Shown in pieces: positions 17,977 to 22,869 of a stretch of 49,704 bases of DNA. Origin of the DNA: Mucilaginibacter sp. (GTDB lineage: Bacteria; Bacteroidota; Bacteroidia; Sphingobacteriales; Sphingobacteriaceae). The stretch lies in contig JAICMD010000002.1 of the NCBI GenBank assembly GCA_025929405.1, forward strand, positions 1 to 49,704, given 5' to 3'. Each line of letters opens with the position of its first letter. Positions within the stretch are counted from its first letter, which is position 1. A program made the translations under genes and the position numbers. The notes below the pieces were generated by a model, which was not told where the DNA came from, did no database searches, and saw nothing but the letters and a program-made list of their open reading frames with translations.

Positions 17977-18918
17977 TTACACCAGTTCAAAATGGTCAAT
18001 CTTATTCAGATCTAAAATCAACCTGCCATCGTCATCACGATCAAAAGCAGGTTTAAATTTAGCATCCCATATCATTTCATCGTACTGATAGGAGGTACGG
18101 CTATGTACCGTTTGCGAGAAGGTATCATCAAAAGCTTTTAGCAATATGGCAAAGCTGGCTTCGGTTTCGCGCATGCTTTCGGGAGTAATATCTCTTAACG
18201 GGCTATTATCATCAAGCGGGTGCACTACTGTCCAGCTCATAGTAAGTATACTCACCCTTTTGCGTTCAAGTTCAAGCGATAAAAACCGGCGTATCTTTTT
18301 GCCATCCACATCATCATTATATGAAAATATAACCTCCATTTGCAGGTCTATCAATGTATTGCGCCGTAGGTTTGCCAGGCGAAACATTATGCCTTTGCCA
18401 TTTTCCATATATGGCGCAACTAACAGGTTTTTACTAAATTTCATTTTGGCTGATGGCCGCGAGAAACGCCCATATAATAATCCCGTTGCTAAAGCAAACG
18501 CCAGTAAACCTATCATTGATTCCATAGCGGCTACACTGTTAGAGAACATTCCGTGCGGACTGATATGCCCGTAACCAACAGTTGATATGGTTTGCGCCGA
18601 AAAAAAGAAGGCATCCATAAACCGCTCGAAAAAACTATTGCCTGTAGCGCCATCCAAACTGCCTGCCCCAAGCAATACGTAAATAGAAGCGAAAATTATA
18701 TTGGCAATAAAATAACAGGTTAATATAATGAGCCAGAACTTGCCCCAGCCCATAGTTATCAGGTTATGATAATTGTTGGATGTGCTAAAGCGCGACAAGC
18801 CCTTGCGTTTAACATTTACAGAGCCATCGCGGTTAATGAGCCGCTGATTTTGTATAACAGCCTGCTGGCCAAAACCAAGGTCGTCTTCGGGGTTAAATTT
18901 GCGTTTATGTAGTAGCAT
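17977..18918 (-). CDS. Inward-rectifier (KirBac-type) potassium channel
   Basis: FFFSAQTISTVGYGHISPHG pore/selectivity filter between two TM segments, C-terminal Kir cytoplasmic domain (MFRLANLRRNTLIDLQMEVIFSYN). Confidence 0.88.
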   Translation of the reverse strand: MLLHKRKFNPEDDLGFGQQAVIQNQRLINRDGSVNVKRKGLSRFSTSNNYHNLITMGWGKFWLIILTCYFIANIIFASIYVLLGAGSLDGATGNSFFERFMDAFFFSAQTISTVGYGHISPHGMFSNSVAAMESMIGLLAFALATGLLYGRFSRPSAKMKFSKNLLVAPYMENGKGIMFRLANLRRNTLIDLQMEVIFSYNDDVDGKKIRRFLSLELERKRVSILTMSWTVVHPLDDNSPLRDITPESMRETEASFAILLKAFDDTFSQTVHSRTSYQYDEMIWDAKFKPAFDRDDDGRLILDLNKIDHFELV

Positions 18919-19023: not shown

Positions 19024-19055
19024 CTTGCTTTTCGTAAAAACAATTTTCATATTTG
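19024..19055 (+). promoter_or_regulatory. Candidate promoter of the trp operon
   Basis: cTTG, 20 nt, CATATTTG (7/8 match to TAnnTTTG). Confidence 0.5.
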
Positions 19056-19084
19056 CTGAGTAAATGAACGTTAGAAATTTAAAT

Positions 19085-19111
19085 ATGAATTGGTGGTGGC
19101 TTAACGAGTAA
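19085..19111 (+). CDS. trp leader peptide MNWWWLNE (in-frame upstream ATG at 19064 would give MNVRNLNMNWWWLNE)
   Basis: atg aat tgg tgg tgg ctt aac gag taa: three consecutive Trp codons immediately upstream of a terminator and trpD. Confidence 0.88.
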   Translation: MNWWWLNE

Positions 19112-19181
19112 ATCGTGAGGCATTCCCATTTATAAAAAAATATATATATTTAAAAGGGTTGCCGTTGGTAACCCTTTTTTT
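19099..19181 (+). promoter_or_regulatory. trp attenuator: 1:2 stem (19099-19121), 2:3 antiterminator (19119-19132 with 19151-19163), 3:4 terminator (19153-19181)
   Basis: GCTTAACGA-gtaaa-TCGTGAGGC; GGCA.CCC.TTTA pairing with TAAA.GGG.TGCC; AAAGGGTTGCC-gtt-GGTAACCCTTTTTTT. Confidence 0.85.
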
Positions 19182-19226
19182 ATGTTAACGTTTAACTGCA
19201 TTTAACTAATTCCCTGTTGGGTATAT

Positions 19227-20219
19227 ATGAAACAAATTCTAAACCATTTATTTGAAAATAAAACATTCACCCGCGAGCAATCAAAAAATATTTTAACCAT
19301 AATTACGCAGGGTGCTTATAATAACTCGCAAATAGCCGCTTTTATGACGGCATATTGTATGCGCAGCATAACCGTGGCTGAACTGGAGGGTTTTAGGGAT
19401 GCCATGCTTGAACTAAGCCTGCCGCTTGACCTGGAAACTGATGAACTGATAGATCTTTGCGGCACAGGCGGCGATGGAAAAGATACTTTTAATATATCAA
19501 CATTGGCATCGTTTGTGGTTGCAGGGGCCGGATATAAAGTTGCCAAGCATGGCAATTACGGCGTTTCATCAGGCTGCGGCTCATCCAATGTGATGGAGTA
19601 TCTGGGCTACCAGTTTACCAATGATGCGGATAAACTTAAAAGTAGCATCAATAAAGCTAATATTTGTTTTTTACATGCGCCCTTGTTCCATCCGGCAATG
19701 AAAACAGTTGCGCCTATACGCAAGGAGTTGGGGGTTAAAACATTTTTTAATATGCTGGGGCCAATGGTTAACCCTGCAAGGCCCAAAAATCAACTGGTTG
19801 GGGTATATAATTTAGAACTGGCCCGTATATATGCATACCTATATCAGCAATCAGATGCTAAGTATACCATTTTGAATGCTTTAGAAGGGTATGACGAAAT
19901 ATCATTAACCTGCGATTTTAAAACGTTTTCAGCCGATGGCGAAAAAATAAATAGTATAGAAGGTTTAGGATTTGACAGGCTGCATCCATCTGCAATAGCA
20001 GGAGGGAGTACCGTGGCCGAGTCGGCAGAAATTTTTGTGAAAGTGCTAAACAACGAAGCTACTACCGCGCAAAGCAACGTGGTTTTGGCCAATGCGGCTA
20101 TGGCTATAAAAACCATCAATCCGCAAAAAACCTTTGCTGACTGTTTTTATGAGGCCGAAGAAGGATTGCTAAAAGGCGCGGCGTTAAAAAGTTTTAAAAC
20201 CCTTTTGGAGACTAAGTAA
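19227..20219 (+). CDS. trpD: Anthranilate phosphoribosyltransferase
   Basis: LCGTGGDGKDTFNISTLASFVVAGAGYKVAKHGNYGVSSGCGSSNVMEYLG. Confidence 0.97.
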   Translation: MKQILNHLFENKTFTREQSKNILTIITQGAYNNSQIAAFMTAYCMRSITVAELEGFRDAMLELSLPLDLETDELIDLCGTGGDGKDTFNISTLASFVVAGAGYKVAKHGNYGVSSGCGSSNVMEYLGYQFTNDADKLKSSINKANICFLHAPLFHPAMKTVAPIRKELGVKTFFNMLGPMVNPARPKNQLVGVYNLELARIYAYLYQQSDAKYTILNALEGYDEISLTCDFKTFSADGEKINSIEGLGFDRLHPSAIAGGSTVAESAEIFVKVLNNEATTAQSNVVLANAAMAIKTINPQKTFADCFYEAEEGLLKGAALKSFKTLLETK

Positions 20220-20857
20220 TGAAGGTAAAAATTTGCGGTTTACGCGATGGCGATAATATACAGGCAGTAGCAGCTTTGGCCCCCCATTACGTGGGTTTTA
20301 TTTGCTATGGGCCATCGCCAAGATATATTAATGACATGCCTGCGCAAACATTAGCAAACTTACCTGCCGAAATTTATAAAACAGGTGTTTTTGTAAATGA
20401 AAGCAAAGAGAATATTGCTAAATTGATAAATCAATACGGCTTTAACGCCATCCAACTGCATGGTAATGAAAGTCCTGAATTTACACAATCATTCAGGGAT
20501 AGGGTTTTGGTTTTAAAAGCTTTTGGGCTTGATAAGAATTTTGATTTTGAACAATTAAATGCCTACGCCAACAAAGTAGATTATTTTCTGTTCGATACCA
20601 AAACTGATCTGCATGGCGGCTCGGGCAAAACGTTTGATTGGGGTGTTTTAGATAATTACAAATTGAATGTCCCTTTCTTTTTAAGCGGAGGGCTTAGTCT
20701 GGGTAATTTGGATGAGGTTAAAACCATCCGTCATCCGCAATTTTATGGGGTTGATCTGAATAGTAAATTTGAAACATCGCCGGGAGTAAAAGATATTGAA
20801 AAACTAAAAAAAGCATTTGAAATGCTTAACTATACAACTAATGAAATACGGAGTTAA
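20219..20857 (+). CDS. trpF: Phosphoribosylanthranilate isomerase
   Basis: [37 protein letters not shown]...[15 protein letters not shown]...[20 protein letters not shown]; starts within a TAATG overlap with trpD. Confidence 0.96.
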
Positions 20858-22022
20858 CGAACAAGGCTACTACGGTGATTTTGGCGGCGCATACATCCCC
20901 GAAATGTTGTACCCCAATGTTGAAGAACTAAGGCAGCAATATTTAAAGATTATTAATGATGCCGATTTTAAAGCCGAGTTCGATCAGCTTTTAAAGGATT
21001 ATGTAGGCAGGCCATCGCCATTATATCATGCTAAACGCTACTCTGAAAAATATGGCGCTAATATATTTTTAAAGCGTGAGGACCTGAACCACACCGGATC
21101 GCATAAAATAAACAATGCTATAGGACAGATATTGTTAGCTAAACGCTTAGGTAAAAAACGCATCATAGCCGAAACGGGTGCAGGGCAGCATGGCGTTGCT
21201 ACTGCTACAGTTTGTGCTCTGATGGGTATTGAGTGCATAGTTTATATGGGCGAGGTTGATATGGCCCGCCAGGCACCAAACGTTGCCCGTATGAAAATGC
21301 TTGGCGCAAAGGTTGTACCGGCTAAATCAGGGAGTAAAACTTTAAAGGATGCTACTAACGAGGCCCTGCGCGACTGGATAGGTAACCCGGTTGATACACA
21401 TTACATCATAGGCTCGGTTGTAGGGCCGTACCCTTATCCGGATATGGTGGCAAGGTTTCAATCCATCATATCTGCCGAGACCAAACAACAGCTTAAAGAG
21501 CATACAGGCAAGGAACTACCCGAATATGTAATGGCCTGTGTTGGCGGCGGCAGTAACGCTATGGGTATGTTTTACCATTTTTTGGATGATGAAAGCGTAA
21601 AATTGGTTGCTGTTGAAGCAGCAGGCAAGGGTGTGGACAGCGGCCATTCCGCAGCTACAACTTTTTTAGGAAAAGAAGGCGTTTTGCATGGCAGCCGTAC
21701 CATTTTAATGCAAACCGACGACGGACAGGTAGTTGAGCCATATTCTGTATCGGCAGGATTGGATTATCCGGGTATTGGTCCGCAGCACGCGCATCTATAT
21801 AAAATAAATCGTGCCCAATATGTAAGCGTTACTGATGATGAGGCATTACAAGCTGGTTTATTATGCTGCCAATTGGAAGGAATAATCCCGGCAATTGAAT
21901 CGGCACACGCGTTGGCGCAACTGGAAAAAATGAAATTTAAGGCTGATGATAATGTGGTTGTCTGCCTGTCAGGTCGCGGGGATAAAGACCTGGATACTTA
22001 TATAAAATATTTTAATTATTGA
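20841..22022 (+). CDS. trpB: Tryptophan synthase beta chain
   Basis: [19 protein letters not shown]...[51 protein letters not shown]; start refined to MKYGVNEQG. Confidence 0.97.
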
Positions 22023-22098: not shown

Positions 22099-22869
22099 AT
22101 GAACCGTTTAAACCAACTTTTTGCAGCTAAGAAGGATAATTTATTGTCTATTTACTATACCGCGGGCTACCCTGCAATTGATACAACCATTGATATTGCC
22201 GAAGCGTTGGAAAAAGCAGGCGCTGATTTTTTGGAGATAGGCTTTCCGTACTCCGATCCTGTAGCAGATGGGCCAACCATCCAGAATAGTTCTCAGCAGG
22301 CGTTGGATAATGGTATGACGCTTAACCTGTTGTTTGAACAGTTGAAAGATCTGCGTAAACGTGTAAGTATCCCAATTTTATTAATGGGTTATGTAAATCC
22401 TATAGTTCAATTTGGTGTGGAGCGTTTTTGCAAAATGGCTGCTGAAGCAGGTGTTGACGGCGTAATTGTGCCCGACCTGCCTATGTATGAATATGAAACT
22501 TTGTATTCGGGCTTTTTTAAAGATAATAACCTGAGCAATATATTCCTGGTAACCCCACAAACTTCCGAGGAGCGCATCCGCAAAATTGATAACCTGAGCG
22601 ATAGTTTTATTTACCTGCTATCATCGTCAAGCATTACAGGCGGCAACCTCAGCGTATCAAACAGTATAGAAGACTATTACAAACGGGTTAAGGCCATGGA
22701 GCTTAAAAACCCAACAATTATCGGATTCGGTATATCAAACAGCGAAACATTTAATAAAGCCTGCCAATACGCCAACGGCGCCATTGTAGGCAGCGCGTTT
22801 GTAAAACTACTTGAGCAGGATGGGTATATGGGTAAGATATCGGGATTTGTGAGATCAATAAGACCGTAA
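22099..22869 (+). CDS. trpA: Tryptophan synthase alpha chain
   Basis: GADFLEIGFPYSDPVADGPTIQNSSQQAL...GVDGVIVPDLP...GFGISNSE. Confidence 0.97.
   Translation: MNRLNQLFAAKKDNLLSIYYTAGYPAIDTTIDIAEALEKAGADFLEIGFPYSDPVADGPTIQNSSQQALDNGMTLNLLFEQLKDLRKRVSIPILLMGYVNPIVQFGVERFCKMAAEAGVDGVIVPDLPMYEYETLYSGFFKDNNLSNIFLVTPQTSEERIRKIDNLSDSFIYLLSSSSITGGNLSVSNSIEDYYKRVKAMELKNPTIIGFGISNSETFNKACQYANGAIVGSAFVKLLEQDGYMGKISGFVRSIRP

Follow-up and report, generated by a model that had tools for sequence, protein, structure and literature searches.

A probable ribosome-mediated Trp attenuator of the Bacteroid-trp class before trpD in the split trp operon of Sphingobacteriaceae

The tryptophan biosynthesis genes of the genome under study are split, with trpD-F-B-A present in the 49.7 kb stretch of DNA analysed here as a whole (the window) and trpE-G-C on another contig (G000:C280). 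The named genomes nearest to the window are Mucilaginibacter. On the plus strand, trpD (anthranilate phosphoribosyltransferase, 19227-20219; TIGR01245, E 6e-92) would be the first regulated gene, and it is followed by trpF (phosphoribosylanthranilate isomerase, 20219-20857), the best model for which, NF002298 (E 1.6e-51), fell below its curated cut-off, by trpB (tryptophan synthase beta, 20844-22022; TIGR00263), and by trpA (tryptophan synthase alpha, 22099-22869; TIGR00262).

The trpD leader (19064-19181, plus strand) combines an ORF with three consecutive Trp codons (WWW), a hairpin starting from the third of these codons, and an intrinsic terminator, and, as read from the sequence, one segment within the leader has the hairpin and the terminator as alternative pairing partners. 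The tandem Trp codons TGGTGGTGG (19091-19099) are the proposed stall site, and the stop codon TAA of the leader ORF (19109-19111) is separated by 115 nt from the trpD ATG (19227), in agreement with the spacing of about 115 nt given in a preliminary description of the locus. The tandem Trp codons, terminator and alternative pairings which that description had placed before trpD were each present in the sequence, as was its TTG-N20 promoter, consisting of promoter-like Bacteroidota elements on the plus strand with TTG at 19025-19027, a spacer of 20 nt, and CATATTTG at 19048-19055. The gene at 17977-18918 on the minus strand, divergent from the leader, encodes a predicted K+ channel-like protein, whose start can also be read ahead of the leader in other loci of Mucilaginibacter.

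Counted on both strands, TGGTGGTGG was found once in the 49.7 kb window, and WWW was encoded by one of the 1019 short ATG ORFs on the two strands, i.e. the trpD leader read from either of its two starts. The leader RNA folded at -34.1 kcal/mol versus -19.9 kcal/mol for shuffles (z = -4.2). By the uniqueness of TGGTGGTGG, the uniqueness of the WWW ORF in the window and the fold, the trpD leader exceeds chance.

The start of the leader ORF had to be revised. The preliminary description had begun it at ATG 19085, a position at which an ATG occurs in one of 63 distinct leaders, that of the window alone. ATG 19064 is in frame and exactly 9 codons ahead of the first Trp codon, a spacing kept in 54 of the 63 leaders, and the leader peptide is for these reasons most likely MNVRNLNMNWWWLNE (15 codons, 19064-19111, plus strand). 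The leader stop follows 6 or 8 codons past the first TGG in 61 of the leaders. The promoter-like CATATTTG occurs in 47 of the 63, and CATCTTTG in six, the ATG following at a median distance of 10 nt; in the window, CATATTTG ends 8 nt 5′ of ATG 19064, and transcription therefore probably starts near 19060-19062, a few bases before the ATG, placing the ORF almost at the 5′ end of the RNA. Shine-Dalgarno sites are mostly absent from Bacteroidota.

By the refuting condition set in the preliminary description, attenuation would have been contradicted if close relatives had lost the tandem TGG codons or the alternative pairings; when the comparison was run, both were conserved instead. Three TGG codons are present in 62 of the 63 distinct leaders and two in the remaining one. 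The leader precedes trpD in all 43 loci of the Sphingobacteriaceae type (L067-L109), the family of compared genomes being so called by its named members; in three of these loci (L072, L073, L101) the leader was recognised by direct sequence reading and not by the ORF filter, and an additional search of their genomes for TGGTGGTGGC was uninformative. At the level of genomes, a covariance model of the window-type leader (R1) matched 192 of 201 family genomes, although some of these matches may represent the trpE leader. Residues at the N-terminus of the leader peptide vary widely, and the conservation lies in the Trp codons and the pairing arms. A Trp-rich ORF lying by chance beside an ordinary terminator could leave the operon without regulatory coupling, as a terminator between promoter and gene could merely damp transcription; conservation of WWW, of the distance to the start codon, and of three stems in 63 distinct leaders and nearly the whole family refutes this explanation and leaves it with a negligible probability.

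Those three stems are the 1:2 hairpin, the 2:3 antiterminator and the 3:4 terminator, and by per-sequence folding all of them can form in each of the 63 distinct leaders. Stem 1:2 (19099-19121, plus strand) pairs 19099-19107 with 19113-19121. It was correctly located in the preliminary description, but eight of its nine pairs form, with one A.G mismatch that had gone unmentioned, and its extent had been given too short: the minimum-energy hairpin extends to 19084-19134, and the Trp codons are themselves paired in it. The mean energy of stem 1:2 in the 63 leaders was -7.9 kcal/mol (-2.2 kcal/mol when shuffled). Pair counts were taken on an alignment of the leaders (A2), with shuffle controls that ignore relatedness, and on this basis stem 1:2 had 41 cells with both sides changed versus 19.6 in the shuffles. 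As the stem occurs in two registers, with and without a bulged G, it is understated on the plain alignment (72% of cells), and per-sequence folding was for this reason used in addition.

The predicted antiterminator 2:3 (19119-19163, plus strand) was supported both by folds and by pair counts. Its pairing with the terminator 5′ arm, claimed in the preliminary description, was recovered between GGCA..CCC at 19119-19127 and GGGTTGCC at 19156-19163, and is lengthened by an outer TTTA/TAAA pairing. The mean energy was -12.4 kcal/mol in the 63 leaders versus -6.7 kcal/mol in the shuffled ones. In alignment A2, 87.5% of the cells of stem 2:3 were paired, falling to 25-59% once the partner was slid, and only 9 cells had both sides changed; the covariation for stem 2:3 taken alone appears modest, because its score of 0.218 was attained by 63 of 500 shuffles. 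Terminator 3:4 (19152-19181, plus strand), identified from the sequence and from pair counts, consists of AAAAGGGTTGCC-GTT-GGTAACCCTTTT and a run of seven T (19175-19181); its mean energy was -14.9 kcal/mol, and in the 63 leaders 95.5% of its cells were paired and seven pairs had changes on both sides. Region 2 and both arms of the terminator vary in concert, with GGCA/TGCC changed to GACA/TGTC in one locus (L010) and replaced by TGTAACCC/GGGTTGC in several Pedobacter leaders.

A switch between these structures was predicted by folding with bases masked at ribosome footprint edges. With bases up to 19110 masked, as by a ribosome on the Trp codons, and region 3 as the newest transcribed, the best structure was 2:3; with bases up to 19122 masked, as by a ribosome at the stop codon, it was terminator 3:4; and without a ribosome, the long 1:2 hairpin (19084-19134) formed, followed by 3:4. 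In equilibrium folding 3:4 outcompeted 2:3 even with region 1 masked. As the terminator is thus the stronger structure at equilibrium also in the stalled case, the switch must be kinetic, decided by the order of synthesis. Kinetic switching is accepted for the trp operon of E. coli.

Classical attenuation calls for a leader ORF with tandem codons for the end product, for a mutually exclusive antiterminator and intrinsic terminator, and for a stop codon at which a ribosome completing the leader masks region 2. The first was found as WWW in 62 of the 63 leaders, and the second in all 63; as to the third, region 2 (about 19113-19121) lies just past the stop codon at 19109-19111, where a finishing ribosome would cover it. 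The attenuation reading of the preliminary description is supported by the comparison, i.e. by the 63 leaders with their WWW, three stems and both-side pair changes, and trpD-F-B-A is, judging from the sequences, very probably controlled by a transcription attenuator that is ribosome-mediated and belongs to the Bacteroid-trp (RF01692) class. From the observed anatomy, conservation, covariation and predicted fold switching of the leader, promoter activity, translation, stalling, termination and a response to Trp would be expected. Transcription would begin a few bases before ATG 19064, with a ribosome trailing the polymerase along the 15-codon leader. When Trp-tRNA is plentiful, the ribosome would reach the stop codon (19109-19111) and cover region 2 (19113-19122), so that terminator 3:4 would form and transcription would end near 19181. 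When Trp-tRNA is scarce, the ribosome would stall at codons 10-12, covering region 1 and leaving region 2 free; the free region 2 would pair with region 3, the terminator would not form, and the operon would be read. If the leader were not translated, hairpin 1:2 would form and the terminator would come after it. The model assumes tight coupling of translation and transcription in Bacteroidota.

Control of trp operons through termination has other known routes, in which a T-box or a protein such as TRAP senses Trp and no leader ribosome is involved. No T-box match was obtained in an Rfam scan of the window, reading the leader by eye revealed no conspicuous array of (G/U)AG repeats, and the tandem Trp codons would be left unexplained, which makes such sensing extremely improbable here. 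The terminated leader RNA or its peptide may act in trans as well, so that part of the conservation would reflect that function; such action of a trp leader peptide in trans has been reported for rnTrpL/peTrpL of Sinorhizobium meliloti (PMC7298713). In favour of this reading, the terminated RNA would be expected to be stable and about 120 nt long. However, the conserved parts are the Trp codons and pairing arms and not the variable N-terminal residues, and attenuation in cis alone accounts for the constant features; the additional function in trans is considered unlikely.

The trpE half was found to have a leader of its own. The second Trp-codon leader, MIKNKNINSWWRPLILAAG, lies upstream of trpE-trpG-trpC (G000:C280:7177-7314, equal to 2678-2815 of locus L036), and its ORF begins about 163 nt 5′ of the trpE start codon, behind a promoter-like TATAAATTTG. 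Its terminator, AACCCGGCGA..TCGCTGGGTTTTTTT, is of a CCCGGC type and differs from that of the trpD leader, and the antiterminator arm, GCCGG, with which the 5′ arm of this terminator can pair, lies where the MIKNKNINSWWRPLILAAG ORF ends. At gathering score no Rfam match was obtained for the trpE leader, which may have been mentioned in earlier literature; against RF00513, the trpE leader of the window genome scored 18.2 (cut-off 41). A Trp-codon leader was present at all 30 family trpE loci read, with one to four Trp codons, and in 28 of them a spacing of 9 codons separates the start codon from the first Trp counted. In the terminator helix 98.5% of cells were paired and both sides had changed in 17, and the mean energy of stem 2:3 was -10.5 kcal/mol versus -5.7 kcal/mol for shuffled sequences. 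In three loci of one genus of the family (L041-L043, genus g3), only one Trp codon precedes the pairing arms of the trpE leader, e.g. MIDQKHNNNWRSLPKRKAG, which keeps the same terminator and CCGG arm.

A covariance model of the trpE leader (R2) matched 116 of 121 family genomes (E≤0.01), and the match was located 10-168 nt upstream of trpE in 48 of the 50 genomes with trpE mapped. Both R1 and R2 matched in 112 of 121 genomes (E≤0.01), a number which was compared by hand, includes weak matches and is therefore an upper bound. Lower R2 matches in two loci (L159, L163) turned out to be terminators behind ordinary genes, and others led to Tyr/Phe-rich leaders before pheA in Pedobacter-like genomes, e.g. 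MNTNTTYYFGYFYF..., with a Y/F-rich leader ORF in loci L160, L162, L164 and L165. In the window genome, a leader ORF with Phe/Tyr codons, MKLTSVYFYGYYFYFNSKSRD, is located about 160 nt upstream of pheA (locus L168, G000:C246) and is followed by a GTCCCGGC/GCCGGGAC terminator. Such a pheA leader was found in all 11 genus-level genomes checked, the window genome included; the loci submitted to an Rfam scan gave no match for it, and it may likewise have been mentioned in earlier literature.

In more distant Bacteroidota (37 loci, L110-L146), trpE and/or trpG motifs were present upstream of trpD in all but one (L111), and a Trp leader of the window type was found before trpD in none of the 37. A WW or WWW leader with terminator preceded trpE in 20 of the 37 as counted by a strict script, and of the 10 distant loci tested with RF01692, six exceeded the cut-off ahead of trpE. 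From these placements, the RF01692-type leader stands ahead of trpE where the trpE-G-D genes are contiguous, and ahead of trpD where the operon is split and trpE has a different leader.

On balance, it is somewhat more probable than not that the split of the Sphingobacteriaceae trp operon has left its halves under two separate, structurally different Trp attenuators, so that charged tRNA-Trp would be read twice per cell, and that together with the Phe/Tyr leader of pheA these form a set of ribosome-mediated attenuators starting almost at the 5′ end of their RNAs. A split operon with an attenuator of different structure on each half would be a modest novelty. The conserved leader of the trpE half is absent from Rfam, and pheA is preceded by a Phe/Tyr leader. 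The 63 trpD and 30 trpE leaders constitute a comparative set ready for use in culturable Mucilaginibacter or Pedobacter, which could address whether coupling of transcription and translation in Bacteroidota is tight enough for attenuation, and how the two parts of a divided pathway stay coordinated.

The trpD leader is not new in itself and belongs to an already catalogued RNA class. Weinberg et al. (2010; PMC2864571) reported Bacteroid-trp (RF01692) from Bacteroidetes as a motif regulating in cis, and other authors have described it as conserved upstream of the trp operon of Flavobacterium psychrophilum and likened to attenuation (PMC6414381). RF01692 matched the window at 19047-19163 (plus strand) with 50.2 bits, passing the gathering score of 49 by a margin of only 1.2 bits, and, the genome being one of the Bacteroidota, the match precedes Trp genes, here trpD-F-B-A; since the match is above the cut-off of a class published in 2010, the leader is a known kind of element. 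The Rfam matches in the window were two tRNAs and RF01692, with no others. Weak RF01692 matches elsewhere in the genome in two cases (L002, L003; 25-26 bits, E about 2) were attributed to chance. At E≤0.01, the family genomes matched were 31 of 121 for the Rfam model and 192 of 201 for R1, so that the Rfam model misses most of the class in Sphingobacteriaceae; the RF01692 seed seems to under-represent the family.

In comparison with RF01692, the window leader shares the Trp leader, the hairpin and the 5′ arm of the terminator, the model stopping short of the 3′ arm; it differs in its position before trpD of a split operon, whereas the element stands before trpE in the Flavobacteriia loci examined. 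Strong clues for leader-peptide attenuation before amino-acid operons are reported from the transcriptome of another Bacteroidota species, F. psychrophilum (PMC9723704). RF00513, the model of E. coli trpL, had no match in the Rfam scan of the window. The E. coli trpL leader has two Trp codons. The window leader resembles it in the tandem Trp codons, in the 1:2, 2:3 and 3:4 pairings, and in a stop codon placed for the cover of region 2, but differs in its three Trp codons and in having almost no 5′ UTR.
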